From Diphasiastrum complanatum (Eukaryota > Streptophyta > Lycopodiopsida > Lycopodiales > Lycopodiaceae): 64,000 nt of DNA. The position numbers and the translations under genes were made by a program. This document shows positions 6,309 to 45,653 of this stretch, piece by piece. Position 1 is the first letter of the stretch. Each line of letters starts with the position of its first letter. The stretch lies in the NCBI GenBank assembly GCA_029204225.1, contig CM055100.1, positions 22,128,248 through 22,192,247 on the forward strand, in the 5' to 3' direction. The notes beneath the pieces are model-generated. The model saw only the letters and a list, made by a program, of their open reading frames with translations. It searched no databases and was not told the origin of the DNA.

Positions 6309-8205
6309 AAAAAAATTTAAATTTTTTTTAGTGTTATTTAGCAAAAAAAATATGGACGCGTCCGAGCCCGTGTCTGGGGGTCGGACACGTCCGGGTCCAG
6401 ACGCGGACGCAGAATGCCCGCGTCCGGCCCGGACCCTCATGTCTATCTTTCTAAGGAAGCGGGGGCTGGACGCAGACGCGCGCCCGCGTCCGCATCCGGC
6501 CGCGGATGCCTCGGGGGTTCGTCCGCGTCCCCCCATTTTCAACTTTTTTTTTTTCAAAAAAAAAGAAAAGAATACAGGCCTTCGCCCTCGCTGTCACACA
6601 TCCCCAAAGCAAAATAAAAACAATTTATGACCCCCGGCCCCCCGCCCCCCCCGGAGGGTGTCTGGCACCCACCTGCCCCCTCCTATTAAAAAATAGGAAA
6701 ACGGTACCCAAAAAAATTCGCAACAAACCTAACCACTGCCCCCATGCCTCCCATGTCTGATATCTCTGTACAATTTATATTTTTTGAGTCACCAAAACTC
6801 TGTAGACTCGTGCCCTCGCTATCTTTCTCTCCCTGACGAATCTATATTATACTATTATATAAATACAGGTAAACGATGCGCTCCCCGGATGAACCTCAAC
6901 AACTTACTAATTACTTATGCTCCACAGTGTCATTCAACACAGGGAAGTTCAAGACCTACACAATACCATCTCATCACCCTAAACCCTAAACCTATCTCAT
7001 CACATAGGCCCTATGTGATGAGATAGGTTTAGGGTTTTGGGAGGTACAACGTCACATGGGCAACAAATCGGGGCAGGTACAATGTCACATGGGCACTGTG
7101 GGGGAGCAGACCGCGGGCCCAATCGGAGTGCAGCACGTGGGGGAGCTACACATGGGGGCAGGGACAGTAGCACATGGGCATTGTGGGGGAGCAGACGATG
7201 GGGCCAATGGGAGTGCAGCACGTGGGGGAGCAAGAAATGGGGGCAGGTACAACGGCACATGGAGGGATCATCAACAACTGCACATGGGAGAACAGGCTGT
7301 GGTGTTAAATAGGCACTCACGAGGCTGTGAGAGAGCTAGTGAGAGGCTGTGAGAGGCATTGTGAGAGGCTGTGAGAGAGCCAGTGAGAGCCAGTGAGAGG
7401 CTGTGAGAGCAATAGGACGTCGTGAGATGGCGGAGCGCATACCACCGAAGCCTGAGGGCGAAGCCAGGAGGAAGCTCGAGGAAGATGTCCGAAGGCACAA
7501 CGAAAGGCATCGGAAGCAAGAGGCAGACTCGGCAGAGAAATCCGGAACCGGAGCCACCCGCCCCCACTGTCGCCCCTGCCCCCGTTGTTGAGCTGGATTT
7601 GGATGAGTAGATTGGAATGAACTTCACACGACGATAGCTCATCATGGTCAGGGAAAGGGCGGCCCGCCGTCGGGCTAACTAGGAGGCAGCTAGGGCTAAC
7701 CGGGAGGCAGAGCGAGAGCGACAAAACAATGCACCTGACGAGGGCGAGGAGTCAGTGGAGGGAGATAGGAATGTTTAGAATAGATGGGGTCTAGCCGTAT
7801 GTGGCTGACTGTGGTTATGTAGTTTTCGGCAGTAGATGAGGCAGCATTTAGTGTCAAACATAGTGTAAAGAACAGCCCCAACCGTATATGGCGAAAATAC
7901 GTATTGTTATTTTGATACATCTGATGAATTAATGTACGGTGTGTTTTTTGTGCAACGCGTGCCTAGTGTATTGCAATGTAATGTATGTGTTTATGAAATG
8001 CTATCAGGGGGGGTGTATTTCTCTGAAGTGCATCTGCTCTCAATTTTTGTGTAACTATGTATGATGATTATGGCTGTGGGGTTTACTGTTTAGGGTTCAA
8101 TGATTGGACATGATGCATATGATCTGAGAGACATGAAGATGCGCTTGTGTACCACAATAGCTCAAGCATTTATAGTTTCCATACCACGTCCGCTCTCGCT
8201 CTCTC

Positions 8206-8242
<37 letters not shown>

Positions 8243-10831
8243 TTGCATAGAGCAAACCATTTCTAACTAACCATTCAAATTTCATTGAGCTAACCATTTG
8301 TTAGCAATCATGATAAACTAGCCATGACACGAATAAACTGTAAAATAATATATACATCTCATCTGATGCCAATATACATGATAGTCTGTGTGTATCAATA
8401 TCTACAAGTCTGTGCTAAAAAAATCATCCCTCTGCATGCCAGATGCATCCTCAGGGGTGTCAAATACAAAGTCTGGCTGGGAGTCTGGAGGCATCTAGGA
8501 CTCCTCCAAGTCTGGGCCAATGCCTGCCAAGAGATGACTAGAAAAATCATCGGTGCGTCCCCTCTTGGCCTGCCTCTGGGTCTGCCGGAAGGAACCCTTT
8601 GTGGTACACTCCTGCCTGGGGGTCTCCCTCTGCCACGAGGGGGTCTCTGAGAAGAACCGACTGCCTGTGATGCTCTGAATCGTCTCTGTGCAATCTGTCT
8701 CTGGGTGGCGACCATCTCGTCTGAATCATATGTGGGCTCATCATCAGAGGGCAATGGAACGTCAGCAGGAAGGGGGGTGGTCTCATCAGTATCAGCATCA
8801 TCCTCGGGATCACCCCGCAGAGCACGCCGAACGGCATCGTCTGGATCAACCTCTGGCTCTGCCTCATGATCGGCCGCTGCAACCAGGCACTCATCAGGAT
8901 TGACCTGCAGAAGTCAATCATTCGTGAAAATAGCCCAAGCAACCGTGAGGGCATTAAACTGAATGTCTTAAACTAATACGAAAGCAAACGATAGAGCATA
9001 GACATATACCTGCAAGAGCAGGGCACCTACGCCTCATGCCCTTATGCTGTCCGTGATGCGTCGAACCACCCTGGTGTTGGTGTTGCAGTACACCAAGTCA
9101 TTGCATCGCTCAGTCGTCAGACGGTTCCGCCTGTTCGTGTGAACAAGGCTGAACGCTGACCAGTTCCGCTCACACACGCAAGCAGAACAGTCCTGCATTA
9201 ATTGGAAACCACTCGAGTGAGTACTGACCTTGTAGAGAAAATGCGAAAACTGGTTGGATGAATGAGATTAGACAACATACCTGTGAAAGGACTCAGAACG
9301 CGAGCGTCCTCAGGTCTGGTTGTCCAGCATCGTAACTCTCCCACCATGATCCAGGCAAGAGCCTGTTCTCTCGGACATGTGCAAGGTCCTCGCCGAACAG
9401 CCCTAGACAGTGCCTGCAGTTGAGCAGCGATGTGCGTGAGTACACTTGAGCCCGCACAGGGAAATTGAGCGAACGACCGTGTACGATAGAGCAAGAGTTT
9501 ACCTGTAACTGAGCCTCTGCTCCTCGAGCCTGCTGCGGATACCAGTGTCGCTGTTGAGGAGGCGGATGTATGAGAACCAGTTCGCATGCAGCTCTGCATC
9601 GTCATACTGCCTCTCGCTCTGAAATAGCGGATGCAGTATGTGGGCCACATTGTGAATGGGCCGGTGAAACTTATCCCATCGTCGCCGCCACAACCGCCTG
9701 ATAGGCTCCAACCTGTGGAGCATACCATGTGGAGGCAACAATTACATACCATCGTGTTGCGGCAGCAAGACGAAATAGAGTGCGACATGGAAGAAAGGAT
9801 GGTGAGACGGAAAAAAGTTATACCTGGCAGGGTCCAGCTCAGAACGCTGGAGAGACTCGCCTATGCGGTCCATCAACTCGTAAATGAGGCCCATCGTGCA
9901 CTTCTCGCGATCAACGAGCCTCAGAACAGAGTAGATGGGGCGCATGACGTCCATGAGCTGCTGCATATCCACCCAGAAAGGCTCCATGAAGAGGATGTTG
10001 TGGAAGGCCAAGCCCTCTGGGGTCGTGGACAGGTCCATGGCGGTGAACTCTACAAAAGTAGCCATGCGCCGCAAATCACCCTTGAGCTTGTGTAGCCGCT
10101 CAAGCACGATGAATTGGAAGGCGAAGCGGGTGCGAGCGGGCTTCTTCAAGTCGAGCCTGCATTGACAAACGGAATGAGAGGCACACATGAAACGAGCCAT
10201 AAAAAAGAAGCATCTTGAACGAGCCAAAAAATAAGTAGCATCTTACTTGCTGAATGTGCGGAAACGAAGTCCACAACCGCAAGTGCCCTCGTGAGAATGT
10301 CACTGACCCAAGGCAGGCGCCCGATGGAATGCAAGAGGAGGTCCAGCGAGTGTGCGGCACATGGAGTCCACACAATGGAGGGGTACTCTGCCATAAGAAG
10401 CTCCCCCATACCGCAGCAGTTGGACGCATTGTCCGTCACAACCTTTCGCGATTAGTTCATACGATTAGTTCACAGCTTGGAAACACATTGCAATCAATCG
10501 AAAACTATGCAAAACTTTTGTATCAACATTAAGCAGTAAATGACCAAGCAACTAATGAAAGGAAATTTACCTGGACAACACGCTGTGGCCCGACCTCCTC
10601 TATCGCTGCGTGGATGATGCCTTAAATGTACTTGGCCGTATGCACTCTCCTTGCCTCGGAGGCGTCGATGTTGCGCAGGAACATGGAACCGTAACAACCA
10701 GAAACAATCACGTTGATGAGCGGACACAATCACTCTCTGTCTCTTCCTCTCTCTCTCACACACAGATCACCACACACACACATCTGTGCATACACAAATC
10801 AATTAACCCACACACACACACACCATAACTC

Positions 10832-11379: not shown

Positions 11380-11430
<51 letters not shown>

Positions 11431-12212
11431 TAGTTGCAGCGCGATTCCCGAATCGCGATTCCGATTCGCGATTTCGGGATTTTCCCAGAATCGTGTAGAA
11501 TCGATTTTTGTTTTTTTTTTTTGAAATTTTTTTAGGCAATATGGGTATCAGATGAAAGCTCTGATCGAGGGGATTATGATTGTGTAGTTTGCCAACTGTT
11601 TTGGGTGCGAAACACCAAAAAGTGTGTTTTCACTCGGGGAGTTGGAAGGCCAAATCATGAAGAGGCCTTACCGTCGGGGCCGGGGTCTACCGGCAGCCCC
11701 CGGATCCCGCCGTTGGGGGGCGTTGCCCCCCAAACCCCCCACCAGGGGGCTACCGCCCCCCGAACCCCCCGTTTCCCGGAGGGCTACTGTCCCCCGAACC
11801 CCCTAGAGCTTCTTGCTATATAGACACTGTAGATAAAAATGCCACCGCCCCCCTTAGATAAAAATGGGGTCCAAATGCGCGCCGAGAAGGGCCCAATATT
11901 TATGCCCCCAACTGTATGTACATTGCACTCACATCTCCAGTGAACCAATTGCAAAAGTGATCATCATCCATACAGTTGATAGTCCAAACTGTAGCATTAA
12001 CATTTACTGAAAACTAGAGCAAATGACAACCGGATAGCTACTGAAAATAAGATCTGTTTGTGCCTCATCTACTGCACTTATGAGAGGCAAAACGCTGGTT
12101 TGACCATTGATCCCCTAAAAAAATTTCAGCAATAAGCTATTTTTCCAATCGCGATTCGCAGAATCGCGACCCGCGAATCGCAGTCCCAGCGAATCGCGAT
12201 TCGCTGCAACTA

Positions 12213-12262
<50 letters not shown>

Positions 12263-12927
12263 TAGTACCCCGTGGTACCGGCGGTACCATATCAATGGTA
12301 CCGCCGGTACGGTACCGCCCTGGGATCCAAGGTACCAGGGCAGTAGCATAATATAAAAAAAAAAATAAAAGTTCCCCGTGTTATTTTCGCAATTTTTTTT
12401 TTTTTTTTTTTGGTACCGCCAACCGATATGGTACCGTGGTACCGGGATCCGCGGGACCTATGATATATATATATATATGTATCTATATATATATTTAAAC
12501 TTATGTACACTTTTGCGCATGTGTATGGGTGCACCCATGCATCCTCCTCTCCTCACCCATGCATGAGCTTTTTCTAACTAAAAAACTTGGGGAGGAGGAT
12601 GCATGTATGGGGGAAAAGGATGCATGGCCCTCCTCCCCATGCATGCATCTAAGGGGCTTACTCCAAATTCAAATTATCCTTTACCAACACACATAGTGTT
12701 TTGAAGTGCATGTACATACTTTCAAGGTGAAAGGTGTTAAACAAATGAGACTTTCATTATAAAGGGTGCTCTAAGGATTTTTTAAATTATCAGACTTTCC
12801 ATGGGAAAGGTTGAAATAAGAATGCATTTTTATGAAGATCGGCCTCCATTGCCCGTCAACGACGGGCACTCTTTACTAGTATATATATATATATATATCT
12901 ATATCTATATATATATATATATCTATA

Positions 12928-12962
<35 letters not shown>

Positions 12963-15900
12963 TAGTGGCACGTGGTACCGCCATTATGGTACAATGGTGG
13001 TACCGCGGTTATGGTGCCGCCCTCAGACCAGCGGTACCAGGGCGGCACCACAAAAATAATATTTTTTATTATTATTTAAAAAAAAAAAAACCCTTTTAAC
13101 AGGCTAAAACTAGGTAAAAACTAAGATGTTACTGTATAGGGGGACTGTACTGGGGGCACTGCGGGAGAGCGGACCCAATCGGAGTGCGGCATGTGGGGGA
13201 GCAATACAGGGGGCAGGTACAGTAGCACATGGGCATTGTGGAGGAGCAGACCATGGACCCAATCGGAGTGCAGCATGTGGGGGAGCAATACATCCGGACA
13301 GGTACACCGTCACATGGGCACTGTGGAGGAGCAGACCATGGACCCAATCGCAGTACAGCATGTGGGGGATCAGCACATGGGGCAGGTACAGTAGCACATG
13401 GGATCATCAACAAAAGCAAATTGGGAAACAGGCTGTGGGGTTAAATAGGCACTCACGAGACAGTGAGAGAGCCAGTGAGAGGGGGTGAGAGGCACTGTGA
13501 GAAGCTGTGAGGGAGAGCCAGTGGGAGGCTATGAGAGAGAGGCATTGTGAGAGGCTGTGTGAGAGACCGAGTGAGAGGCTGTGAGAGGGGGGCTGTGAGA
13601 GAGCCAGTGAAAGCCATTGAGAGGCTGTGAGGGTCATTTCGAGCAACAGGGTGTCGTGAGATGGCGGAGGGCGAAGCCAGGAGGAAGCTCGAGGAAGATG
13701 TCCGAAGGCACAATGAAAGGCATCGGAAGCAAGAAGCAGACATTGCAGAGATGCTGTGAGAGACTCGGCAGAGACACCCAGAGCTGCAGATCCCCGCCCC
13801 CGCTGTGGCCCCCGCCCCCGCTGTCGAGCTGGATTTGGATGAGCAGATCGGAATGAACTTCACACGACGGCAGCTCATCATGGTCAGGGAAAGGGCTGCC
13901 CGCCGTCGGGCTGACCAGGAGGCAGCTCGGGCTAACCGGGAGGCAGAGCGAGAGCGACAGAACAATGCACCTGACGAGGGCGAGGAGTCTGTGGAGGATC
14001 CGTAGAAATGTTTAGCATAGATGGGGTCTAGCCGTATGTGGCTGACTGTTGTTATTTAATGTTCATCAATAGATGAGGCAGTATTTAGTGTCTGGCATGG
14101 TGTAAAGAGCAGCCCCAGCCGTATGCGGCGGGAATACGTATTGTAGTTTTGATATATCTGTTGAATTAATGTACGGTATGTTTTTTGTGCAATGCTTGCC
14201 TTGTGTATTGCAATCTGATGTATGTGATTATGAAATGCTATCAGGGGGGTTGTATTTCTGTGTTTTGCATATGCTCTGAAACTCTGTACTGAAAACTAAC
14301 TGAAAACATGCACACACCATTTGAAGTAAAACTGCAAGTAGAACATCACTATTACAAATTGATAAATACACATTGTGTAGTGAATAGAATACGTCCAACA
14401 CTAAATATAATATGAAAAATGGTCTGAATACAGTGTTCGACCATCTGGCCGCCAAACATGGAACATGATATCAAACTGCTAAAAATAAAATGACGGAGCT
14501 ACAATCAATGCTCTGCCTCAAACTCAGATGAATGCTCCGGAGACAACTCAGGGCCCCGAGCTGACTCTCGCAACTGATATCTATGTCTGTCTGGTACTGG
14601 CATGGGCTATGTATCCGAGGGGGAAGAGTCGTCATCCTCATCCTCCCAATCTGCCTCCGCATCAGCCCCCAAGCAGGCTAAACCAACAACACCTGCTGCA
14701 GTTGGCTGTAATACAGCACCTCTACCAGCAACTGGAGCCCTGCGAGGTCGTCCTCTCTTCCCTGGGAGTTTCTGTGCCCTGCCTTTCTTGTTCGGTGCAC
14801 CCTTGGGCCTTCCTGGCCTCTTGCGGACGAGGGGAGCCGTCAATGCCTCATCACCCCCATGCAGATCACCTGGCTGACTAGGCTGAGCCCAAGCTGCGGC
14901 CGGCTGGGATAGAGTAGCCAAAGATGGGTGTCCCTATGCAGCTGATAGTGGAGGATAGGTCCGAGGAGTGTGTGCCCGTGGGCCTACTGCTGGTGGAGGA
15001 ACTAGATGTGGAGGGGCCGTCCCTGTAGGAGGCAAGTACAGCGGCGATAAGTACTGAAAGGGGCGCTGTGGTGGACGGTACTGGTACATCCTGGGTGCTG
15101 CCAAAGGAGGAGGATGTGCTGTGGGTGCTGCCAAAGGAGTAGCCGGTGCCGTGGGTGCTGCCAATGGAGGAGGATGTGCCGTGGGTGCTGCCACTGGAGG
15201 AGCGTCTGTAGATGTGGGTGCTGCAAGAGAAGATCTGGGCACAGATGGTGGCCTGCCATGGAGACCTGCTGCTGCAAAAGTGGATGGCGATGAAGGGGCT
15301 GCAGGCCTCAACGGTATCGGTGGCACTGGAGGTGCTGTGCGGCGCACATACACCCTCTGAGGAACTGGAGGAACTGCAGGCACCTCGTGTAGCTACTCTG
15401 GCTGAGACTCTGTGTAGGGCATGCTGGCTAGAGAGGATGGGGGTGCTCTGACGCTCGGCATCTGCTGGGCCTCTAAATCCAAGTCTGCAATCAAGTCGTC
15501 CAACTGGGCATCCGAATACAAATGGTCTGGGCTCTGGGACTCATCATGAGCACCATCCTCGGGAACATCCCGTGCCTCATCCTGTGCACCATGCGGACCC
15601 GGCATGGCCTCCCAATCGGTACAATCAAAGTCATCTGGTGACTCCTCTGGTGTGCTGTCATAGAAATGCCTATGGCTCTGTGATGCACGCATCCAAGCAG
15701 CTGCGGAAGGTAAACCCAAATCAGTCTGCCCCCTATCAAGAGCCTCCTCCATCATATCAACATAAGAAGGTATGCCACTGGCCCCCCCTGTGTGCCCTGC
15801 CCGTCTCCCGGTATAATCTGTGGCATGTGTCCCACCTCTACCACGTGATGCACCTATGACCCCTGCTCTAGGCGTGTGCCCAACACTTGTATCATATGCC

Positions 15901-18900
15901 TCATCCCGCTCTGATCTGGCGAACACAACCCGAATAGGCTCATCCTCATCCTGATCATCCTCTGACACTGGCTCATCTGCCTCGTACAACGGGGGCTCTA
16001 TGTGCTCAAGCCCAAGCTCTCTCTCTCTCATCTCGGCAAGCTCCCTCTCTCTCTCTGCCATCAACTGTGTGCCCAAGTCATCTGCAGGCATGGGATGGGT
16101 GCTGTCCGTAGGCAAGTCAACCTGGCGCTCCAAATCGGATATCTTCGTCTGCAAGGTTTAAAATTTGCATGTCAGAGAAACAACTCTATCAAGAAATGAA
16201 ACCAACATACCAGGAGTCAACCAACATGCTATGAAAGGTTAGCTTATCACCTGCAATGCGCTCGTAATGGTCGGAAGTCTCCTGGCGAGACGTGCGTTGG
16301 TGCTACAGAACACCAACCGCTCCAACTGACTCACTGACAACCGGTTTCTTCTCCTCGTGTGAATGAGTGCCCATGTGCTCCAATTACGCTCACACACGGA
16401 GGCAGCACAATCCTGTGGTGCGTGCATTGAAATACTTCAGCACATTGTCTTCAACGAAACACAAAAATGGAGGATAAAATGAGATGCATACCTGAGAAAG
16501 GACACGCAGTGCAAGACGCTGTATAGATGGGTATGTGCTACCGAACATGGTCCACCAGGTAATGGGTAGCTACCTCCTCTCTGGATTTTGGGCAGCCGGG
16601 TGGCCGAATGTGCCCATGCCGAAACGAAATGCAGCGAGCTCCTCCATGAGCCTGATATGATCCAAACCTATGTGTGGACCCACCCTGTGAATGTACTGAA
16701 GCCAATCGGCCTCGAGCTCCCTGTTTGCGATCTGTGTCGGAGAGAGGAAGAGGGGATGCAGCATGTGTGCAATGCTGTGGATACTCCTGTGGAAGTAGTT
16801 CCACCGCGTCTCCCAGATGAACTTCAGCTCTGTCATCCTGCAGGTGAGAGGCATGTGGTTTAGGGCATTACGAAAAAATGTAACATCGACAAAAAAACAA
16901 ACTAGCAAACACTGAAAAGATAAAGGTCAATTACAACACTTTATTGCTTACCTCTTTGGCTGCAAGATGGGCAGCTGCAGGAACTGTCCAATCCGGTCCA
17001 TGAGCTCGTACACCAGTCCAAGTGTCAACCCCTCGCTGTCAGCCATGCGGAGCACAATGTAGAGTGGTCGAAGCAGTCCTGACAATGTCTGTGCATCCCT
17101 CCAGAACTGGTCTCCCCTCACCGTGGAAGAAAAGTGCTCCCCATCCTCAGTGCGCGGAAACGTACTGGCACACCAAAGATCACTGGCAACCATCTGTAGA
17201 AGCTACGCCCTGCACCTGATCAGACGGTCGATGACCACCAAGTCGAATGCAAAGCGTGTGGGGGCTGGCTTACGGAGGTCTAGATGGCGGAACACCCGGA
17301 ACATGGCAAGAACACGCCTCTTCCTCGTGACAAAAGTCACCAGGAAGAGGGCCTCACGGACGATGGCTCTAACCCAGGGAAGTGCACCTATGTCCCCCAT
17401 CAGAAGGTCTATGCCGTGCGCGGCACAGGGGGTATGAACAATGTGAAGGAACTCGGCGTCTAGCAGTACACCCATCTGAATGCAGTTCGTGGCATTGTCC
17501 GTCACCACTGTGACGACATGCTGTGGGCCTATGGACAGGATGGAAGACCTGATGACATCAAACATGAACTCTGCAGATATGACTCTCCCCCCCCTGCTGC
17601 AATCCACTGCCCTCAAAAACTGTGTGCCCATGCAGCTGGAGACCAGTATGTTGAGGATCGGCCTCCTCCTGACATCAATCCAGCCATCGGACATGATGCT
17701 GCAACCGTAAGTGGCCCAGTGGCGACGTAGAGGCTCCATCTCTCTAGACAGTGACTCGACCCTATCCCTCAGCATGTGTGTGCGGACAACCTCTGAACTA
17801 GGGGCTCTCCAGCTAGGGCTGACAGACTGTGCAAGGCGGAAGGCCCTTCTGAAGGGCTCGGAGTCGGTGATGGCAAATGGAAGGTTCAGCTCATAAAGCA
17901 GGCTGGCCACGGCCTGTGTGGCCTCTCTATCCATGTGCGGCTGATGCGCGCCGCGAATGCTCTGCTGCCTAAGAACTCTCCCAGCTGGGCGACGGGTAGC
18001 GGACCTCCAGCACGGTGCACCAAACGTGACGGGAATGGATGATGACGCGACAGCCTGGGCACTAGTGGATGCATCAGCTGTAGACGTGGAATGGGGAGAG
18101 TGGAATGCACTGGCCGGGATGGGTGCAGCAGCGTAAGTGGGGTACACTGGTGGAGGGTGGACATCTGGCATGGGATACGAAAACTGTTGGGTAGGGTGGT
18201 CATCCGGATGTGAAGGGAGGGAGGAAGGGATCTTCTCAACATCCTGGAAGGCCTCGTCACTGGCATCCGGGGCCTGCTCCTGCTCGGGAGGCGGAGAGTC
18301 CATGAGAAAGTCGTAAACTGGGGGAGTGCGAGCAACAGTAGGTGGTGGTGGAACCACAGTGGCAACTGGCGGACGCAGTGGGACAGGATCCACCGGAATG
18401 GGTGCAGATGGGGGTGCGTGAGGCGGAACTGTCTGAGAGGGACGAGGGGCAAAGGGACTGGACGAGGATGCACTCCCTCTCCTCGTGCGTGCCAGCCAAG
18501 TAGGCAGCAACTCGGGGTCAACCACGTAAGGAGCGGTGCAAAACCGAAGAACACCCTCCGAAATGGTGTTCTCCCCCGCCACAAGACGTGGCCCGTAGGT
18601 ATCCAAAAGTCGCTGCCTGACGGGAACGGACATGCTGGCACAGGGGGCAGCATTGAGTGTGCCACCATCTCTTGCGAGTGCGCCGAGTAGGTGACCTTTA
18701 AGGCGAGTGAGGGTGGCAATGAACTCTGTCAGGCAATATCGACAGCGCACTATCCTTGCATCGGACTTGTTAGACTTGTCGGGAACCCGCCTGACAATGT
18801 CCACCTCGTCCCACAGATCGGCAAGGTTGGAATGCACCATCTCTGTAGAAAGGACTGGGGAAAGAAGGCAGAGATCTCTGTGGGTGCAATAGGAGTCAGA

Positions 18901-19227
18901 AGGCTTGAAAAAACCACAATAAAGGCTGAAATAGCAATAGCAGGGGAGGACGCGATCAGTGCAATGCGAAGACAACCGGGAGGGCGCGGACAATAGGGCG
19001 ATGGGCGGACAACAGGGAGGGCGCGGACAGTAGGGCGACGGGCAGGGAGAGAGATGAAGCGGGGGGGGGGATTAGGTTAAAAAAAAATACAGTAATACAT
19101 TAAATATTAAAAGATATTATATACTAAAAAATAATATATATTGTGGTACCGCGGATCAGTATGGATCCGCGGTACCACACTGGATCCGCGGTACCGGGAT
19201 CCGCAAATCCTGGTACCGCTGGATCTA

Positions 19228-19283
<56 letters not shown>

Positions 19284-22200
19284 TAGTACCCCCCTGGTAC
19301 CGCTGGTATGGTACCGCCGGTACCATATCAGTGGTACCGCCGGTACGGTACCGCCCTGGGATCCGCGGTACCAGGGCGGTACCATTTTTAATATTTTTTT
19401 TATTTTTAATATATTTTTAATAATTTTTTTTTGCATATTAACTACCAAAAAAGGACAAAAAAAGGTAAAAAAAGGGGGTTCTGGGTGTAAAAAAAAGAGG
19501 GTACAATACATGATGCAGGGGACTGTTGCAGTGGCACATGGGCACTGCGAGTGAGCAGACCGAGGGGCCAATGGGAGACCAACACAGGGGGGTAGCATCA
19601 CATGGGGGCAAGTACAGAGGCACATGGGCATTGTGGGTGAGCAGACCATGGGCCCAATGGGAGACCAACACAGGGGGGAGCATCACATGGGGGCAGGTAC
19701 AAAGGCACATGGATGGATGATGGGGATCCACATGGCCGATCAGGCTGTGGGGATAAATAGGCACTCACAATGCCATTGTGGTCGGCATTTTCAAAGGCTG
19801 TGAGAGAGCTAGTGATAGACAGTGAGAGACCAAGCAAGAGCCGGTGACAGGCTGTGAGAGGCTGTTTGAGAGCCAGGGTGCTGTAAGAGGGTGGTCAAGG
19901 ACCAGGGTGCTGTGAGGAGAAGGTCGATCGAGATGGCAGAGTGCATACCACTGAAGCCCGAGGGCGAAGCCAGGAGGAAGCTTGAGGAAGATATCCGAAG
20001 GCACAATGAGAGACATCAGAAGCAAGAGGCAGATATCCGAGAGATGCTGCGACAGACTCGACAGAGAAATCCGGAACCGGAGCCACCCGCCCCCGCTGTG
20101 GATCTTGTCCCCGCTGTCGAGCTGAATCTGGATGAGCAGATCAGAATGAATTTCACACGGCGGCAGCTCATCATGGTCAGGGAAAGGGCGGCCAGTCTTC
20201 GGGCTAACCAGGAGGCAGCTCGGGCTAACCGGGAGGCAGAGCAAGAGCGACAAAACAATGCACCAAACGAGGGCGAGGAGTCGGTGGAGGATCAGTGAGG
20301 GATGTTTAGAATAGATAAGGTCCAGCCGTATGTGGCGGACTGTTGCTATGTAGTTTTCGGCAGTTTATGGTGCAGCAAATGACTAGATGGCTGCTTAAAA
20401 AAATGACAGTATATGTGATGTTATCTTGATACAACGGTTGAATATATACATAGTTGTTTTTTGTGCAACGCGAGCCTGGTCATGTAAGATGCAATGTCTG
20501 TAATTTTTTTAAATGCAGATGTATTACATGTGTTTATGAAATGTTGTTTGGGGTGTAGGGGTGATTGCTGTGCTCATGATGTAGGTGCATATATGTGAAG
20601 CTAGCATTCACTTCAAATGAAATTAAATGAAAATAGGATTCACACGCACACATAGAATTCGACATAAAATAAAGCATCACATGTACAGAGTGACATACGC
20701 ACAATGTGCAGCAAATAATGTAGGCCAAACACTGTATATAATGTGAAAAATCATCTGAGTACAATGGTAGACCGCCTGCTAGAGACAAACTACTGAAACT
20801 AAAACAACAGAGCCACAATCAATGCTCTGGCTCTGACTCAGACGAATGCTCTGGAGACAGCTCAGGGCCCCGAGCTGACTCTCGCAGCCGATATCTCTGC
20901 CTGTCTGGAACTGGCATGGGCTGTGTATCCGAGGGGGAAGACTCGTCATCCTCATCCTCCCAATCAGCCTCCGCATCAGCCCCCAAGCAGGCCAAACCAA
21001 CAACACCTGCTCCAACTGGCTGTGATACTGCACCTCTACCTGTACCTGGAGCCCTGTGTGGTTGTCCTCTCCTCCCTGGCAGTTTCTGTGCCTTGCCTTT
21101 CTTGTTCGGTGCACCCTTGGGCCTTCCTGGTCTCTTGCGGACAAGAGGAGCTGTCAATGCCTCGTCACCCCCATGCAAATCACCTAACTGGCTAGGCTGG
21201 GCCCAAGCTGAGGCCGGCTGGGATAGGGAAGCAAAAGAGGGAACTCCCTGTGCACCTGAGCGAGGAGGATGAGCTCGTGGAGTGTGTGCCCGTGGGGCTG
21301 CTGCAGGTGGAGGAACTGGCTGTGCAAGAGGCAAGTACAGTGGCGATATGTACTGAAAGTGGCGCTGTGGTGGCCGGTACTGGTACATCCTGGGTGCTGC
21401 CAAAGGAGGAGGATGTGGAGTGGGTGCTGCCACTGGAGGAGCCACTGTGGATGTGGGTGCTGCAAGAGAAAACCTGGGCACAGATGGTGGCCTGCCATGG
21501 AGACCTGGTGTTGCAGAAGTGGACAGCGATGGAGGGGCTACAGGCCTAAACGGCATCGGTGGCACTGGAGGAGCTGTGCGACGCACATACACCCTCTGAG
21601 GATCTGGAGGAACTGTAGGCACCTCATGCGGCTGCTCTGGCTAGGACTCTGTGTATGGCATGCTGGCAAGAGATGATGGGGGCGCCCTGACACTCGGCAT
21701 CTGCTGGGCCTCTGAATCCAATGTGGCAACCAAGTCGGCCAGCTGGGCATCCGAATACAAATGCTCTGGGCTCTGGGACTCATCCTGTGCACCAGCCTCT
21801 GAATCATCCTGTGCACCAACCTCTGAATCATCCTGTGCACCAACCCCTGAATCAACCCAAGCCTCATCCCGTGCCTCATCATGTGCACCCTGTAGACCCT
21901 GCATGGCCTCCCAATCTGTGCAATGAAAGTTATCAGGTGCCTCCAATGGTGTGCTGTCGTAGTAACGGCCATGACTCTGTGCTGCACGCATCCAAACATC
22001 TGCGGGACCGGCATCTAAACCACTCTGCCCTCTATCAAGAGCCTCCTCCATCATGTCGACATAGGTAGGTGTTACGAGCTCGTAACCAGTGCCGAACCCT
22101 AGGGAACACAGATAGGTCAGATACCACAGTCAGGGTCGTGTCCAGTGTACATGACCAACAGGGCAAGACAGTGTGAGTAGTGTGCCCCAGCACGGTCCAT

Positions 22201-28200: not shown

Positions 28201-29110
28201 CCCCAGTTGGGTCCCGACGTGCAGTCGGCCACGTCAGTGCCACGTGGTTTTGGGATGAACTCCAACAGCAACACAGAAAGGAAACAAGAATTCTGTCACA
28301 GCTGCAGCAGAACAAAATGGGATGATCGGATCGCAGGATGAGAATTTTTGAGAGACACTCTTTGTGAGTTAAAGCCTTCTCAATCTTTTTCTCTGCATTT
28401 ATTTTTGCCACAAGGCGATAAACAAAGACCTTGTGCTTTTGACCAATTCTGAATGCTCGGGAAATTGCATGTCGTGCTATAGCAGGAATCCTCCAAATTT
28501 ACTTTCCTCAGACGCCAAACCAATCTAAGGACAGACAGGGATCAATACATATCCCTGTCAATGAGGCCTCTAGCTTCATTCTAATATTTGTACATGTCTT
28601 CTCAGGTAATCCAAGTGCCTTATGTTGTCCGGGCATAAGTTTCAAAAAAATTGTGAAGTCACAAATGCCAGGCAAGTTTTCTAGAACTTCTCCTTTATAC
28701 CAGTTAACAAAGCCTCCTTTATCCAAGGTTCAGGTTTAGGGGATTATCATTTTGTACAGTTCGTTATTCAAGGTTCAGGTCAACCAGATTCTAAACAAAT
28801 TTTGCCTTCAGTTTAGTTGGACTTGTTGCTGCTTTGGATGTTAAAAACATAGGATTTGAACTGTGCTTTGGATAATCGAGGACTTTTTATTTTAATATTC
28901 TCTGGGTAAGGGTGGTCTTGAGTGTATAATATATATTTCTAACAATCTGAGGTGCGGTAGCTCGAGTCTAAACACCATCACAAGAAATGGGGTTACATTA
29001 GAATAAATATGCTGAACTTCAATCATATTCAGAAAAGTATGAGCATGGTGGAAGAGTCTTGAAATTGAGTATTCAAAAATGTAAACATACACTGCAAAGG
29101 AGCTTATATC

Positions 29111-31841: not shown

Positions 31842-31901
<60 letters not shown>

Positions 31902-34900
31902 TAGTGTCCCTTGGTACCGCTGACATGGTATCGCCGGTACCATATCAGTGGTACCGCTGGTACGGTACCGCCCTGGGATCCGCGGTACCAAGGCGGTACC
32001 ATTTTTAATATATATATATATTTTTTAATATTTTTAATATTTAATTTTTGCCTACTACTTACCAAACCAGGTCAAAAAAATGGAAAAAACAGGGGTTCTG
32101 GGTGTAAAAAAGAGGGTACAGTACATGGTGCAGGGGACTGGTGCAACAACACATGGGCACTGTGGGTGAGCAGACCATGGGGCCAATGGGAGAGCAACAC
32201 AAGGGGGGAGCATCACATGGGTTTAGGGTACAGAGGCACATGGAGGGATGATGGGGATCCACATGGCCAGTCAGGCTGTGGGGATAAATAAGCACTCAGA
32301 ATGCCATTGTGATCGGCATTTTCAGAGGCTGTGAGAGAGCTAGTGATAGACAGTGAGAGAGCAATCAAGAGCCGGTGATAGGCTGTGAGAGGCTGTTTGA
32401 GAGCCAGGGTGCTGTGAGAGGGTGTTCGAGGAGCAGGGTGCTGTGAGGAGAAGGTCGATCGAGATGGCAGAGCGCATACCACCAAAGCCCGAGAGAGAAG
32501 CCAGGAGGAAGCTCGAGGAAGATATCCGAAGGCACAACGAAAGACATCGGAAGCAAGGGGCAGACATTGCAGAGATGTTGCGACAGACTCGGGAGAGACA
32601 CCCAGAGCTGCAGATCCCCACCCCCGCTGTGGCCTCTGCCCCTGCTGTCGAGCTGGATTTGGATGAGTAGATCGGAATGAACTTCACACGGCGGCAGCTC
32701 ATCATGGTCAGGGAAAGGGCGGCCAGACGTCGGGCTAACTAGGAGGCAGAGCGAGAGCGACAGAACAATGCACCTGACGAGGGCGAGGAGTCGGTGGAGG
32801 ATCAGTAGGCATGTTTAGAATAGATAAGGTCCAGCCGTATATGGCGGACTGTTGCTATGTAATTTTCGGCAATTTAGGGTGCGGCAAATAACTAGATAGC
32901 TGCTTAAAAAAAGGACAGGATATGTAAAGTTATCTTGATACAATGGTAGAATGAATACATAGTTGTTTTTTGTACAACGCGAGCCTGGTCAAGTGAAATG
33001 CAATCTCTGTATTTTTTTAAATGCGAATATGATACATGTGTTTGTGAAATGCAGTTTGGGGTGTAGGTGTAATTGTTGTGCTCATTATGTAGGTGCATTT
33101 ATGTGAAGCTATCATTCAATTCAATCGAAATTAGTTGAAAATAAGATTCACACACGCACATAGAATTTGACATAAAATTGAAAATACAGCATCACATGTA
33201 CAGAGCGACATACGCACAATGTGCAGCAAATAAAGTACGCCAAACACTGTATATAATATGAAAAATGATTTGAGTACAATGGTAGACCGTCTGCTAGAGA
33301 CAAACTACTGAAACTAAAATAACAGAGCCACAATCAATGCTCTCGCTCTGACTGAGACGAATGCTCCGGAGACAACTCAGGGCCCCGAGCTGACTCTCGC
33401 AGCCGATATCTCTGCATGTCTGGAATTGGCATGGGCTGTGTGTCCGAGGAGGAGGACTCCTCACTAGCATCATCCCAGTCTGCCTCCGCATCAGCCCCCA
33501 AGCAAGCCAAACCAACAACACCTCCTCCAGCTGGCTGTAATCCTCCACCTCTAGCTGTACCTGGAACCTTGCGTGGTCGTCCTCTCTTCCCTGGCAGTTT
33601 CTGTGCCTTGCCTTTCTTGTTCGGTGCACCCTTGGGCCTTCCTAGTCTCTTGCGGACAAGAGGAGCTGTCAATGCCTCGTCAACCCCATGCAAATCACCT
33701 GGCTGGCTAGGCTGGGCCCAAGCTGAGGCCGGCTAGGATAGGGAAGCAAAAGAGGGAACTCCCTGTGCACCTGAGCGAGGATGAGCTCGTGGAGTGTGTG
33801 CCTGTGGGGCTGCTGCAGGTGGAGGAACTGGCTATGCAGGAGGCAAGTATAGCGGCGATATGTACTGAAAGGGGCGCTGCGGTGGCCGGTACTGGTACAT
33901 CATGGGTGCTGCCAAAGGGGGAGCCAATGGAGTAGGTGCTGCCAAAGGAGGAGGATGTGGAGTGGGTGCTGCTACTGGAGGAGCAGCTGGAGGAGCCACT
34001 ATGGATGTGGGAGCTGCAAGAGAAAACCTGGGCACAGATATCCTGCCATGACGACCTGCTGCTGCAGAAGTGGATGACGATGGAGAGGCTGCAGGCCTGA
34101 ATGGCATCGGCGGCAATGGAGGAGTTGTTCGACGCACGTATACCCTCTGAGGAGCTGGAGGAACTGTAGACACCTCGTGCGGCTGCTCTGGCTGGGACTC
34201 TGTGTATGGCATGCTGGCAAGAGATGAAGGGGGTGCTGTCTTTGACACTCGACATCTGCTGAGCCTCTGAATCCAATGTGGGGCATCCGAATACAAATGC
34301 TCTGGGCTCTGGGCCTCATCCTGTGCACCATCCCCTGAATCAACCCGTGCCTCATCCCGTGCCTCATCATGTGCACCCTGTAGACCCTGCATGGCCTCCC
34401 AATCTGTGCAATCAAAGTCATTAGAGGCCTCCTCTGGTGTGCTATCGTAGTAACGGCCATGACTCTGTACTGCACGCATCCAAACATCTGCGGGACCGGC
34501 ATCTAAATCACTTTGCCCTCTATCAAGAGCCTTCTCCATCATGTCAACATAGGTAGGTATGCCACTGGGCCCCCCTGTGTGCCTTGCCTGTCTCCCGGTA
34601 TAACCTGTGCCATGTGCCCCACCTCTGCCACGTGATGCACCTGTGACCCCTGCCCGTGGCGTGTGCCCTGCACCTGTATGGTCTGCCTCATCCCTCTTTG
34701 AACTGGCAAACACAACCCTAATGGGCTCATCCTCATCATGCTCATCCTCTGACACTGGCTCATTTGCCTCATACAAAGGAGGCTCTTTGTGCTCAAGCCC
34801 AAGCTCTCTCTTTCTCATCTCAGCAAGCTCCCTCTCTCTCTCTCTGCCATCAACTGTGTGCCCAAGTCATCTGCAGGCATGGGATGGACGCTGTCCGTAG

Positions 34901-37900
34901 GCAAGTCAACCTGGCGCTCCAAATCAGATATCTTCGTCTGCAAGGTCAAAATATTGCGTGTCAGGACAACAACTTGGATAAAAAATGGCAACCTACATTT
35001 TAGTGAGACGTAAACCAACATGCTATGGGGGAATAGCCCATCACCTGCAATGCGCTCGTAATGGTCGGTAGTCTCCTGGCGAGACGTGCGTTAGTGCTAC
35101 AGAACAACCGCTCTAGCTGACTCACTGACAGCCTGTTTTTTCTCCTTGTGTGAACTAGGGCCCACGCTCACACACGGAGGCAGCGCAATCCTGTGGTACG
35201 TGCAATGAAATGCTTCAGCACGTGCACGGGTGGAACGTCAACGAAATACAGCAAGGGAGGATGAAATGAGATGCATACTTGAGAAAGGACACGCAGTGCA
35301 AAACGCTGTATGGAGGGATAGGTGCTACCGAACATAGTCCACCAGGTAATGGGGAGCTGCCTCTCTGGATCCTGAGCAGCTGGGTGACCGAACGTGCCCA
35401 TGCCGAAACAAAATGCAGCTAGCAAACTAGCAAACACTGAAAAGATAAAGCACAATTTCGCTTACCTCTTTGGCTGCAAGATGGGTAGCTGCAGGAACTG
35501 TCCGATCCGGTCCATGAGCTCATACACCAGTCCAAGTGTGGACCCCTTGCTGTCAGCCATGCGGAGCACAATGTAGAGTGGTCGAAGCAGTCTTGACAAT
35601 GTCTGTGCATCCCTCCAGAACTGGTCTCCCCTCAACGTGGAAGAGTAGTGCTCCCCATCCTTCGTGTGCTGAAACATACTGGCATGCCAAAGATCACTAG
35701 CAACCATCTGTAGAAGCTGTGCCCTGCACCTGATCAGACGGTCGATGACCACCAGGTCGAATGCAAAGCGTGTGGGGGCTGGCTTACGGAGGTCCAAATG
35801 GCTGAACACCCGGAACCTGACAAGAACACGCCTCTTCCGGGTGACAAAAGTCACTAGGAAGAGGGCCTCGCCGACGATGGCTCTAACCCAGGGAAGTGGA
35901 CCTATGTCCCCCATCAAAAGGTCTATGTCGTGCGCTGCACAGGGGGTATGGACGATGTGAGGGAACTCTCTCTCTAGCAGGACACCCATCTGAACGCAGT
36001 TGGTGGCATATGTGCGGCTGGTGCGCGCTGCGAATGGTCTTTTGCACAAGGGCTCTACCTGGTGGGCGACGGGTGGTGGACCTCCAGCACGGTGCACCAA
36101 CCGTGACATGAATGGATGATGACGCGACAGGCTGGGCACTAGTGGATGCATCGGCTGTAGACGTGGAATGGGGAGAGTGGGATGCACTGGCAGGGATGGG
36201 TGCAGCAGCATAAGTGGGGTGCAGTGGTGGAGGGGCAAGATCTGGCATGGGATACGAAAACTGCTGGCTAGGGAGATCATCTGGATGGGAAGGGAAAGAA
36301 GAAGGGATCTCATCCACATCCTCGAAGGCCTCGTCAGTAGCATCCTGGGCCTGCTCGGGTGGCAGAGAATCCATGAGAAAATCGTAAACATCGGCAACGC
36401 ACGATCTTCTAACCGGTCTTGTTGCTCTTGTCGGCAACCCGCCTGACAATGTCTACGTCGTGCACCATTGCGATGGAGAAAACTAGGGAAGGTATAGCTG
36501 GAAGGATGGATTGCTTGAAAAAAAACAGCAGGGTTCACTGTTGGAGAGAGAGGCTAAAAATGGGCGAAGGCAGGGCGAAGCAAGTCAGATGCAGGGCAGG
36601 GCGTTGCGAGGGCGAAGGGCGACGCAAGGGATCGAAGAGTGCTTGGGCCGTGGAGATGGAAAAGCAAGGGATGCAAGAAATGCAGCGGTATGCAAGGTCC
36701 GGACAAGAAAAAGAGACTGGTCCGTCAAAGTATCAGCATCGGAGAAATGAGTCAGGAGGTCAGATAAGGCTTCCTTGTACATAGGAGTGTTTTGAGGATT
36801 ATAGCGGTATACGGTCTTTTCGCCAGGATTTAATGTACTAGTACATGGGGTGTGAAGAAGGCCAATAGAGAGAGAGAGAGGTATGAGTGGTCAGACAGGG
36901 TGGTACGGTGAACCAAGAAAGATGAAGTGTAGGGGAGGAGAGACGACAATCCCATGAAATAGTCAACAACACTACTCCCTCCACTGTGTGGAAAACAAGT
37001 AAAGTCACCTGAATCAGGCCACTATAGTAAGCCATTATAAATGGCCAATCCACGAGCCTCTCCCAACTGAAGCATCTGCTCTCCATATGCAGTAACTGGA
37101 CCCGCCGCATTTGCTGATCGTTGCCGAAGGCCAAGATCATCCCGGTCTAAAGCATGTATTTGCTGTGGATCGTCCTATGCTCTATGGAACTCTGTCTGCC
37201 TGGATCCAGTCTTGGCATTAAAGTCGCCAGCTAAAAGAATATAATCCCGCCCCTCATATCTGATGATGTCTGAAGAGATATCCATGTAAGGTGACTCCTC
37301 ATCTGATGTGAAAATTGATGTGTCCGATGGAAAATAACAAATGGCCAGAAAGAGGTCACAGTTCAGTCCCATCAAAGTACGGTCCACCTGAATCCAAATG
37401 TAGCGAGCTCGCTCATCTGTATGCACCAACTCGACCCAAGGCCGGATGAAGTCGCGGACTAAGCAGGCCACCCCACCAGAACCCCGATCCGTCAATGCTC
37501 TCGTCGACCTCCGAAGTGCAGAGTACCAGCAAAACTCGCAACAAACGGTAGACCTCTTTCCAGACTCTCATGTGTCTGGGTGAAAAGTAAGAGATCACCC
37601 TCCGCACAAAAATCTCTAAAATCGCCGGCAGTAGCTGAAGAGTGAATGTCATTGCAGTTCCATAACCTCAACCGCAATGCTCGAGAAAGAACCCCCGAAC
37701 CGCTACCTAGTCCGAAGGGCCTTAATCCCTATTTGTCAGGATTCAGAGTATCAATGTATCGAGCCTTGCCATCCCGATAAATTACCCTCTTCCCCAAAGC
37801 TTTTGCCTCACTGAATGCTTTTTCCCAATCCGCAACCTGCATGGGAGTGAGATCATCATCCATAAATATAAGTGTACCTCTAAGCTTGGCTTGCAGTTTG

Positions 37901-38980: not shown

Positions 38981-39021
<41 letters not shown>

Positions 39022-42705: not shown

Positions 42706-42781
<76 letters not shown>

Positions 42782-45604
42782 TAGTTGCACCCCCCATCCA
42801 GAAACGCGTTTCTGAATTGCGTTTCTGGTTTGGGGAGCATTTCTGAGAAACATTTTTAAGCGGCAAAGAAAGATCTGAGAGTGGTTTGGAGTGAAGATGA
42901 TGGTTTGTATGGCAAACATATTACTGGTTTAGAGTTTAGGGTGCATCAGTGACTGTCTCAAAGAAGTGAATGCTCACCAGAGGATTGGGGAGAGGTGAAC
43001 GCTCACACGAAGAGTGACAAGCTCTCAGGACCAGAAGTCTCTGGGGGAAATTAGGGCTCACCAGAAGAGGGACAAGCTCTCAAGACAGGAAACCACAAGA
43101 CCGACACACCACTATGTCTTATATGATGAGATCGGTTTCCCCCCGGATGAACTTCAACAACTTACTAATTACTTATGCAAAATTGTGTCATTCACTACAG
43201 AAAACCACAAGACCTACACACTACTGTGTCTCGGTTGATGAGATTGGTTTCTCCCCGGATGAACTTCAACAACTTACTAGTTACTTATGGCACTACTTCA
43301 ACATGCTACGATACGCTGTCGAAATTTTGCGTACCAACACGAGGGCTCTAAAACATCTCCCAGTTTTCAGGTCCCGACCGGACAAAGTGTCCATGAAGCC
43401 CTGTTTAACGTCGAACTTCAGACGGACGTTGCGGGCTGACCGTCGGTTGTTTCCTCGTCCTATTTGTTCCCACAGGTTCATATCGAGGTTGTCCATTGGC
43501 CAAAACAGATGGCACCTAAAACGGATCCCATTTGGAGAAACGGGGCCGTCGGACGAAGAGTTGCAAAACTAGTCCATTTCGCTTGACCTAATTGCGTTTC
43601 TCTCCAGTCGAAGGGCCATTTTGACCGAACGTCGAGCCAAGATCGATCCCTTGGGTTCGTATCGGGATCACGAACCTGTGGACTGTGTTCCCGGACCATT
43701 GATGCATTCTACACAGTACCATGGCCTATGTGATGAGATAGATTTAGGGTTTGGGGTGGTACAATGTCACGTGGGCAACTGATCGGAGCATGTCCTGGTA
43801 GATGTCCGCTGACACAACGAACGGAAGCAAGAAGCAAAATTTCACGAGAGCCAGCGAGAGATAATGGGGCGACTACCGGAGCTGCAGCTACGTGCCCTCA
43901 CGGTCCTCGGACCTGCTCCCCCCTGCCCGAGCTGGCGAGGGTGAGGAAACGCAGCGGATTGGAATTAACTTCACCGCAGAACAATTGGCCATGGTCCGGG
44001 AAAGGGTCCCTCGTGCGTCCTCAATTCTGTGGCTTGATGAAAACAACTATGGAAAAACTGTTGTTCACAATTTTGAACTCCAGAAGTTAATGGACACCAG
44101 AAGAGTGAATGGTCAGCAGAACTATGCCATTCACTACAGGGGACCACATGACCGACCATCCTACAAGAGGTATAGCTACCTCTGTCAGCACAGGCCTACA
44201 CAGTACTGTGTCTTGTATGATGTGATCGGTTTCCCCCCGGATGAACTTCGACAACTTACTAATTACTCATGCAAAACGGTTTCATTCACTACAGGCCGTC
44301 CATCCGTTCCTCGTCCTGTCTGCTCCCACAGGTTCCTGGCAAGGTTGTCGGTTGGCCGAAACGGACAGCACCCGAAACGAAGCCTGTTTGGAGAAACTGG
44401 GTCGTCGGACAGAGAGCTGCAAAACTAGTCCATTTCATGTGACCTGATTGCGTTTTTGTCCCGTCGAACGACCATTTTGACCGAACGACACCCGAATCGA
44501 GCCACACTCGGCCCCTTGAGATCGTATCGGGATCACGAATCGTTGGATTGTATTCCCGGACCATTTTGTCAAGTCCGAATGTTTTTAGGTCCCATCCCAG
44601 CAAAGTGTCCCCGAAGCCCTGTTTGACGTCGAACTTCGGAAGGACGTACTGGGCCTGCGGTCCATCCGGTCCTCGTCCCGTCTGCTCCCACAGGTTCCTA
44701 TTGAGGTGGTCCGCTAACCGAAACGGACGACACCTGAAACGGATCCCGTTTGGAGAAACGGGACCGTCGGACGGAAAGCTGCAAAACTAGTCCATTTCAC
44801 TTGACCTAATTGTGTTTCTGTCCCGTCGAAGGGCCATTTTGACCGAACGACACCCGAATCGGGCCAGGCTCGGTCTTTTGAGTTCGTATTGGGATCACAA
44901 ATCCGTGGACTGTATTCCTGGGCCATTTTGTCGATTCCAAATGTTTTCAGGTCCCGTCCCTCGCGAAGTGTCCTTGAAGCCCTGTTCAACGTCGGAGTTC
45001 GGACGGACGTTCTGGGTTCTTCGTCGGTCCTTTCCTCGTCTTGTCTGTTCCGATAGGTTCCTATCGAGGTTGTCTGCTGGTCGAAACGAATGACACCTGA
45101 AATGGATCTCGTTTGGAAAAACGGGACCGTCAGACGGGGAGCTGCAAAACTAGTCCATTTCGATTGACCTAATTGCGTTTCTATCCCGTCGAACGGCCAT
45201 TTTGACTGGACGATACCCGAATCGAGCCAGGCTCGGTCCCTTGGGTTCATACCCGCTTCACGAACCAATGGACTGTATTCCTGGACCATTAATGCATTCT
45301 ACGCAGGTTTAAGTGTATGCTACACAAGTGCAGCTTTGATGTTGAATCTGCACATACCTGTGTTGCAATGCCTACGACACAATGAGGACGTGTGGTGGGG
45401 TTGATGATGTTTATGGATGTGGTTATGATGATGATGGTTGTGGCTTGTTTTGATGGTTATGGCTGTGGGGTTGTGGGTTTAGGATGATTTGTTAGGGTTT
45501 AGGGTGTTATGTTAACTGTGCCATTCGTTAGGGTGTCGGGTTTAGCATGTTATGTTAAATGGTTGAACATGATGCATATGTTATGAATGAGATGCAGATG
45601 TGCT

Positions 45605-45653
<49 letters not shown>

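Follow-up and report, generated by a model that had tools for sequence, protein, structure and literature searches.

A two-gene hAT transposon family with a strong preference for TA microsatellites in the clubmoss Diphasiastrum complanatum

The window analysed here is the whole stretch of 64,000 nucleotides at C9:22128248-22192247 of the Diphasiastrum complanatum genome (1,744,706,496 bases), and its central feature is copy B, a complete transposon lying between two TA tracts. A first-pass annotation had described copy B and its relatives as a two-gene, hAT-like family that lives in TA microsatellites and whose transposase ends in a tail with AT-hooks. The evidence presented below makes it highly probable that these copies form a family of cut-and-paste hAT DNA transposons with a strong preference for (TA)n, entered in the ATATATAT register.

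Copy B and its two genes

The features of copy B, together with the gene parts read in its neighbour, copy C, are as follows:
12961..19229, plus strand (transposase on the minus strand): copy B, complete element of 6269 base pairs (bp), ends CATAG...CTATG, (TA)n on both sides
12880..12960, unstranded: left TA tract of copy B, broken up by TATC units
19230..19281, unstranded: perfect (AT)26 tract common to the right end of copy B and the left end of copy C
16952..18840, minus strand: transposase exon 1, with a Cys/His finger-like start, a proline-rich stretch and the DUF659 catalytic part
16492..16837, minus strand: transposase exon 2
16251..16412, minus strand: transposase exon 3, with the hAT dimerisation motif CERNWSTW
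14607..16148, minus strand: transposase exon 4, a long tail with the AT-hooks RPGRPKG and KRGRPRR, shortened by stops in copy B
13661..14005, plus strand: second gene of copy B, encoding a small protein and interrupted here by a single in-frame stop (open relative P0063)
20819..22069, minus strand: transposase tail exon of copy C
19933..20298, plus strand: second gene of copy C, open, 121 amino acids

The splice sites of the transposase were inferred from the sequence, and the four exons of copy B so defined join in frame. Copy B is complete yet decayed: its transposase contains five in-frame stops (four before the AT-hooks and one after), all of which fall at positions where an intact copy, L132 on contig C1, has glutamine. 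L132 is 6230 bp long and has both genes open; it encodes a small protein of 121 amino acids and a transposase of 1336 amino acids, whose 542-residue tail contains GRP cores at 1235 and 1255.

The proposed hAT identity held. The transposase of copy B matched the Pfam domains DUF659 (E 2.8e-38) and Dimer_Tnp_hAT (E 3.9e-8) above cut-off, and a profile of 15 relatives, from which the window protein was left out, retrieved the Hermes transposase at 7.5e-13, the score coming mostly from the dimerisation part. Three residues invariant in the 15 relatives (D242, D305 and E611 in P0001 numbering) align with the D, D and E of Hermes, which we take to be the catalytic residues, and the motifs SDGW, TDN and CERNWS are all present in L132. 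The Cys and His positions of the finger are conserved in the 15 relatives and were also seen in the intact copy; a search of the copy B transposase against Pfam gave no zf-BED match. The closest database protein came from Ceratopteris (42% identity over residues 330-850), and the nearest scored proteins were 42-43% identical over the searched region; these figures, as well as the statement on the hook pattern of database relatives made below, refer to the best 7990 candidates, to which scoring was confined. Membership of the Mutator superfamily was rejected, as Pfam returned only hAT domains and one insignificant match, and the target duplication (see below) measures 8 bp and not 9-10 bp. Two predicted proteins of Adiantum nelumboides, P0061 and P0062, have the hAT C-terminal part joined to other domains, presumably ligase-like and ATPase-like as judged from their Pfam accessions; they are probably gene-model fusions across hAT insertions.

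The ends of the element are also those of a hAT: short terminal inverted repeats (CATAG/CTATG) are accompanied by clustered subterminal GGTACC palindromes, 28 of whose 32 occurrences in the window lie at most 150 bp from element ends. Two further end types, with AATCGCGATT and AAACGCGTTT palindromes, have the same CATAGT start and the same TA flanks.

The two-gene layout proved real, the second gene being present in copy B (13661-14005) and in copy C (19933-20298). It encodes about 120 amino acids on the plus strand, opposite the transposase. Comparison of copy C with copies A, B and D (see below for A and D) gave ratios of non-synonymous to synonymous substitution rates (dN/dS) of 0.24-0.34; the second gene has therefore been kept as a protein, under purifying selection. 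Its assignment to a known family failed: the small protein has no Pfam match and a single database relative, P0063, itself from Diphasiastrum complanatum and 81% identical to the copy C protein. A structural model computed from an alignment of two sequences consists of two long helices (mean predicted local distance difference test score 77, predicted template modelling score 0.31). The small protein probably works with the transposase.

Target sites, register and duplications

The flanks described in the first-pass annotation were recovered when the TA runs of the window were checked: copies B, C and D start with CATAGT directly after (TA)n, and copy B stops directly before the perfect (AT)26. 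Six of the 12 pure (TA) runs of at least 12 bp in the window stand directly before CATAGT (elements starting at 11429, 12261, 12961, 19282, 31900 and 42780), and three stand directly after xCTATG (elements ending at 12214, 12462 and 19229).

Scoring of the flanks across the genome, as suggested earlier, was carried out for left ends of the B family defined by the pattern CATAGTN6-7TGGTACCG, with the reversed pattern as control. The pattern occurred 2398 times, versus 4 for the control. ATATATAT directly precedes 1437 of these left ends (60%) and TATATATA only 2, both counts being 0 in the control. The two 8-mers have similar frequencies in the window (177 and 168, respectively). The 1437 to 2 ratio therefore indicates that insertion is locked to one register. 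The association of TA with the end is itself not due to chance, since (TA)6T-CATAGT was found 957+917 times genome-wide versus 1+3 times for the reversed control; L001-L008, retrieved with this pattern, were left out of the analysis.

Individual flanks were inspected for the first 100 left ends listed, all on contig C1 (repeated flanks were kept: L030=L065; L068=L072=L073). An alternating TA run of at least 8 bp adjoins 57 of them, and all 57 show ATATATAT. When the 20-bp flanks were classified, 63 were mostly alternating, 12 intermediate and 25 poor in TA, the window background for alternating TA being 0.6-0.7% of positions; in at least four of the 25 (L033, L034, L075 and L076), 4-6 bp of TA nonetheless adjoin the element end, and about a fifth of the 100 lie in ordinary sequence.

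A second sample was taken from recent copies. A 248-residue piece of the transposase gave 150 scored genome matches (from 14001 first-look candidates). Counted by eye, about 98 of these contain an uninterrupted 672-residue open frame, and most of the 98 have an identical score. Copy B is a decayed relative of these copies, and their uniformity points to a recent burst in which the family expanded; the pairwise identity of the burst left ends (median 0.97, minimum 0.61) includes positional slips and so gives no clean age. Sampling followed the order of the list for stop-free copies with the 672-residue frame on placed contigs C2-C13, and flanks played no part in it. Of 38 left ends sought, 34 were found; left out were L143 and L189 (no end close to the predicted position), L172 (N at that position) and L185 (an end 131 bp off). 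Right ends were found for 17 of 18 copies in a first batch (L149 missing) and for 16 of 16 in a second. The result was clear: 31 of the 34 burst copies (91%) lie in TA, 29 following ATATATAT, one ATATATAC and one ATATAGAT; the other three are in ordinary sequence. The TA run adjoining the 29 ATATATAT copies measures 8 to 108 bp. Among the 33 copies with both ends read, 32 showed an exact match over 8 bp and one a single mismatch.

Exact 8-bp duplications were also observed outside pure TA, in 11 copies: L009, L046 and L077 (AACTATAT, GTTCAATC and ATGGCAAT), L015, L042, L043, L065 and L086 (GTTATGAC, CTATGAAC, CTGCTGTT, GTTGTTAT and GTTTTGAG), L140 (ACCTAGAC, with 8 bp as the sole length tested), and L173 and L186 (ATTCGAGT and TGGCCAAG). 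At ten non-TA sites, 8 bp was the only one of the lengths tested that matched; L021 matches at 7 of 8 positions. Within a TA tract, L141 has ATATATAC repeated on both sides, and exactly ATATATAT separates L146 from the neighbouring element. The 8-bp duplications outside TA and the register count together fix the ends at CATAG/CTATG and identify the TA run as target; the possibility that TA is part of the element ends is thereby ruled out.

Several observations nevertheless weigh against so simple a picture. The L056/L115 pair shows no duplication, and those of L075 and L088 (one mismatch each) and L076 (two mismatches) are imperfect. For 30 of the 37 left ends without a clear TA flank, the stretch first examined contained no duplication at up to two mismatches; six of the 30 (L015, L021, L042, L043, L065 and L086) were later settled with their right end, the match for L075 and L076 is loose, and L030 yielded no right end. 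Only 9 of 20 B-type right ends fetched have a mostly alternating flank. Finally, between a fifth and a quarter of the copies sampled are located in other sequence, which means that the element can insert without TA. Of the claim that the family lives in TA microsatellites, the strong preference stands (1437 of 2398 left ends after ATATATAT), but exclusive residence does not.

The AT-hook tail and the choice of target

The AT-hooks were confirmed in the tail of copy B and in the copy at 45.8-46.4 kb (copy E). In the intact copy they read KRPGRPKG and RRGRPRR, i.e. a GRP core with basic residues around it, and hooks are also found in P0064 and P0065, which are 86% and 83% identical, respectively, to the tail of copy C; database relatives of the tail came only from Diphasiastrum complanatum. 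In frame, dN/dS of the tail exon was 0.41 (B-D), 0.39 (B-C) and 0.60 (C-D), versus 0.69-1.13 in the other frames; for C and D, the out-of-frame values were 0.69-0.80. The E-A comparison gave 0.95 in frame 0, with few changes. The view that the tail belongs to the protein is thus upheld by the inferred in-frame splicing, by the intact copy and by the in-frame dN/dS of about 0.4 for B-C and B-D.

The hook pattern was matched by none of 62 database relatives. In five Ceratopteris relatives, 138-207 residues separate the ER motif of the dimerisation domain from the end of the protein, and four of the five inspected have an arginine-rich patch and an acidic end. Hooks are also present in a second transposase type (A/E), about 46% identical to the burst type. 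A midpoint-rooted tree built from 339 columns places the burst type together with seven proteins that lack hooks, five of them from Ceratopteris (support 0.92), and leaves the fragmentary A-type outside this group; hooks were therefore gained twice or lost in the others.

We propose that the transposase would bind the short CATAG/CTATG ends and the subterminal GGTACC palindromes, the latter through its BED-like finger, and would join them to a target cut with an 8-bp stagger, with a lean to nTnnnnAn. (TA)n microsatellites are strongly preferred, almost only the ATATATAT register being used there, and re-insertion into the TA tracts flanking older copies gives rise to non-nested arrays. The 542-residue tail with its two AT-hooks may tether the complex to AT-rich tracts; that such a tether is the main cause of the TA preference is a tentative proposal whose chances we put well below even. 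A role of this kind would resemble that of the chromodomain of some retrotransposon integrases. It is likewise possible, albeit less likely than not, that a hAT lineage gained the AT-hook tail as a tethering module that aims the transpososome at TA microsatellites, with the small protein as partner.

Alternatively, the catalytic core itself may favour bendable TA steps. The nTnnnnAn rule and the bendability of TpA would then suffice to make TA tracts dense in ideal sites, and the tail would do something else, e.g. bind chromatin or assist end synapsis. This explanation, which competes with the tethering step and not with TA targeting, falls only a little short of an even chance. nTnnnnAn is the target preference of Hermes, according to an excerpt of the source (PMC10368747). 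The rule predicts the fixed register, because ATATATAT fits it and TATATATA does not, and it is recognizable outside TA: T occupies position 2 and A position 7 in 7 of 9 non-TA duplications each, and in 13 and 16, respectively, of 22 distinct non-TA left flanks. A hand count that adds L173 and L186 gives a poorer fit: position 2 is T in 8 of the 11 duplications and position 7 is A in 8, and 5 of the 11 satisfy both requirements, compared with 7.8% of window positions. By itself, however, the rule falls short. Only 177 of the 5004 window positions that fit it (7.8% of the window) are ATATATAT, so something more must draw the element to TA tracts: the rule alone would place about 4% of insertions at ATATATAT, against the 60% to 91% seen in TA. 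We know of no TA-microsatellite habit of Hermes, despite the same rule.

A comparison of end groups also bears on the choice between tether and core. B-type ends were defined by GGCACG and burst-type ends by ACCCTC or ACCTCG, miniature copies without transposase being included. TA-like left ends were found in 13 of 24 B-type and 21 of 25 burst-type cases (Fisher p 0.03) although the hooks are closely similar; with a stricter TA cut-off, the counts were 12 of 24 and 17 of 25 (p 0.25). The two types may thus differ in TA preference despite similar hooks, a weak result that counts against a simple hook rule and is compatible with the core acting alone. Note that L170, a B-type copy, has a frameshift in the tail and an altered second hook.

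Two other explanations are very improbable. In one, the TA runs would be part of the ends or would have grown after insertion, and the copies would have spread by recombination between TA tracts; the long and variable TA flanks (8 to 108 bp in 29 burst copies) and the TA-joined arrays would fit, but non-TA copies have 8-bp duplications directly at CATAG/CTATG, L141 duplicates ATATATAC, exactly ATATATAT lies between L146 and its neighbour, and the register is biased 1437 to 2. Later growth of TA runs on top of insertion is possible. In the other, insertion would be nearly random and copies in TA would survive because TA tracts are harmless, as the 25 TA-poor flanks among the first 100 left ends might suggest; however, burst copies, which have had little time for selection, are already in TA in 31 of 34 cases, and random insertion at nTnnnnAn would give about 4%.

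Arrays in the window and comparison with known systems

The remaining elements of the window are as follows:
7060..10727, unstranded: copy A, a B-like small gene and after it an AT-hook transposase of the divergent A/E type
11429..12214, unstranded: non-autonomous relative with ends CATAGTTGCAGCG and the subterminal motif AATCGCGATT, in the same TA array as copy B
12261..12462, unstranded: miniature element, 202 bp, GGTACC family, TA on both sides
19282..22070, plus strand: copy C, left part, cut by a long terminal repeat (LTR) retrotransposon (22069-28247)
31900..36461, plus strand: copy D, with an internal deletion; its left end follows (AT)27
42780..47803, unstranded: copy E, left end CATAGTTGC after (TA)n, right end lost
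48195..48880, unstranded: element with short flanks ATATATAT (48187-48194) and ATATATATA (48881-48889)

The array runs in the order TA, 11429-12214, TA, 12261-12462, TA, other sequence, TA, copy B, TA, copy C from 19282, and by sight none of its elements interrupts another. A comparable arrangement was seen at C3:12722251-12735067 (L138, L139, L157 and L158), where two burst copies lie tail to tail by coordinates with their right ends within one common TA stretch, the arrangement that insertion of a new copy into the TA beside an older one would produce. In the element at 48195..48880, the longest duplication common to both flanks is 8 bp and the two ends are of different type. Copy E has a weak small-gene remnant (43801-44008; tblastn E about 0.01) and an A/E-type transposase with AT-hooks (45817-47790), and the left end and the transposase are taken to belong to one element; tandem repeats of about 363 bp occupy 43382-45290, around and after the remnant. 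The retrotransposon inside copy C is of Ty3 type, with a chromodomain, a long open frame at 23230-28008 and 229 bp identical at both ends, and no rest of copy C was found beyond it within the window.

Other sequences of the window also meet TA tracts. A GC-rich repeat family with GGACGCG motifs (6344-6440, 31740-31836, 38790-38983 and 48975-49420) ends in, e.g., CTTCCTTA or CCGGACCCTCAT, in places halts at or near TA tracts and is possibly a further TA-associated element family. A 72-bp inverted pair (12845-12916 and 38984-39055), with ACTAGTAAAGAGTGCCCGTC adjoining TA runs, likewise terminates at a TA tract. An open glyoxal oxidase gene lies at 62111-63721.

With the hAT superfamily (Hermes, Ac and the plant DUF659 type), the clubmoss family has in common the catalytic and dimerisation domains, the 8-bp duplications, the lean to nTnnnnAn and the subterminal repeats; it differs in its preference for TA microsatellites, its 542-residue AT-hook tail and the second gene on the opposite strand. 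Tc1/mariner transposases, of another superfamily, have an AT-hook-like GRPR motif in their end-binding domain, whereas the clubmoss hooks lie in a long C-terminal tail.

The nearest habits are found among plant elements, for which the comparisons below rest on excerpts of the cited papers. MuTAnT/AutoMuTAnT of Medicago likewise comprises autonomous and small elements in (TA)n, but it has a Mutator-like transposase in a single open reading frame, 9-bp duplications and GGGG ends (PMC4486113). SaTar elements of guayule and rice, including rice Micron, are TA-flanked and form modular, non-nested arrays, and in guayule a minority lies outside microsatellites with ordinary duplications, as in the clubmoss family; they are, however, Mutator-like, with 10-bp duplications in guayule and flanks often at odds with cut-and-paste, and recombination-type spread between TA tracts has been proposed for them (PMC5907723). 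The clubmoss family differs from them in its 8-bp duplications and fixed register, and the TA flanks and modular arrays that it has in common with SaTar and MuTAnT are a likeness of habit, not of membership. The Ac-mMITEs of pineapple (PMC8449440), which are very numerous, and the MiMs of carrot (PMC8227079) are small elements in TA microsatellites that were assigned to, or sought among, Mutator, with no coding partner in pineapple. Maize TAFT, flanked by TA repeats and named without a class in the MuTAnT abstract (PMC4486113), could be the nearest system if it is a hAT. Those plant TA-microsatellite elements whose class can be read from these excerpts are thus Mutator-like, with 9-10 bp duplications (PMC4486113, PMC5907723, PMC8449440, PMC8227079). 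No hAT in TA microsatellites was found in searches of the open-licence PubMed Central literature, and subscription journals or Repbase may hold one. The clubmoss family is a hAT by its domains, ends and duplications, has a target habit so far seen in another superfamily, and combines it with an AT-hook tail and a second gene.

How transposons reach plant TA microsatellites has been called unclear in the carrot study (PMC8227079). The clubmoss family is young and abundant, offers an intact transposase, base-exact ends and a fixed register, and so lends itself to direct tests of target choice in which the tail is exchanged or removed. A hAT that by nature strongly prefers a simple repeat would, in addition, provide a useful contrast to Hermes and Ac, as well as to the Mutator elements of the same niche.

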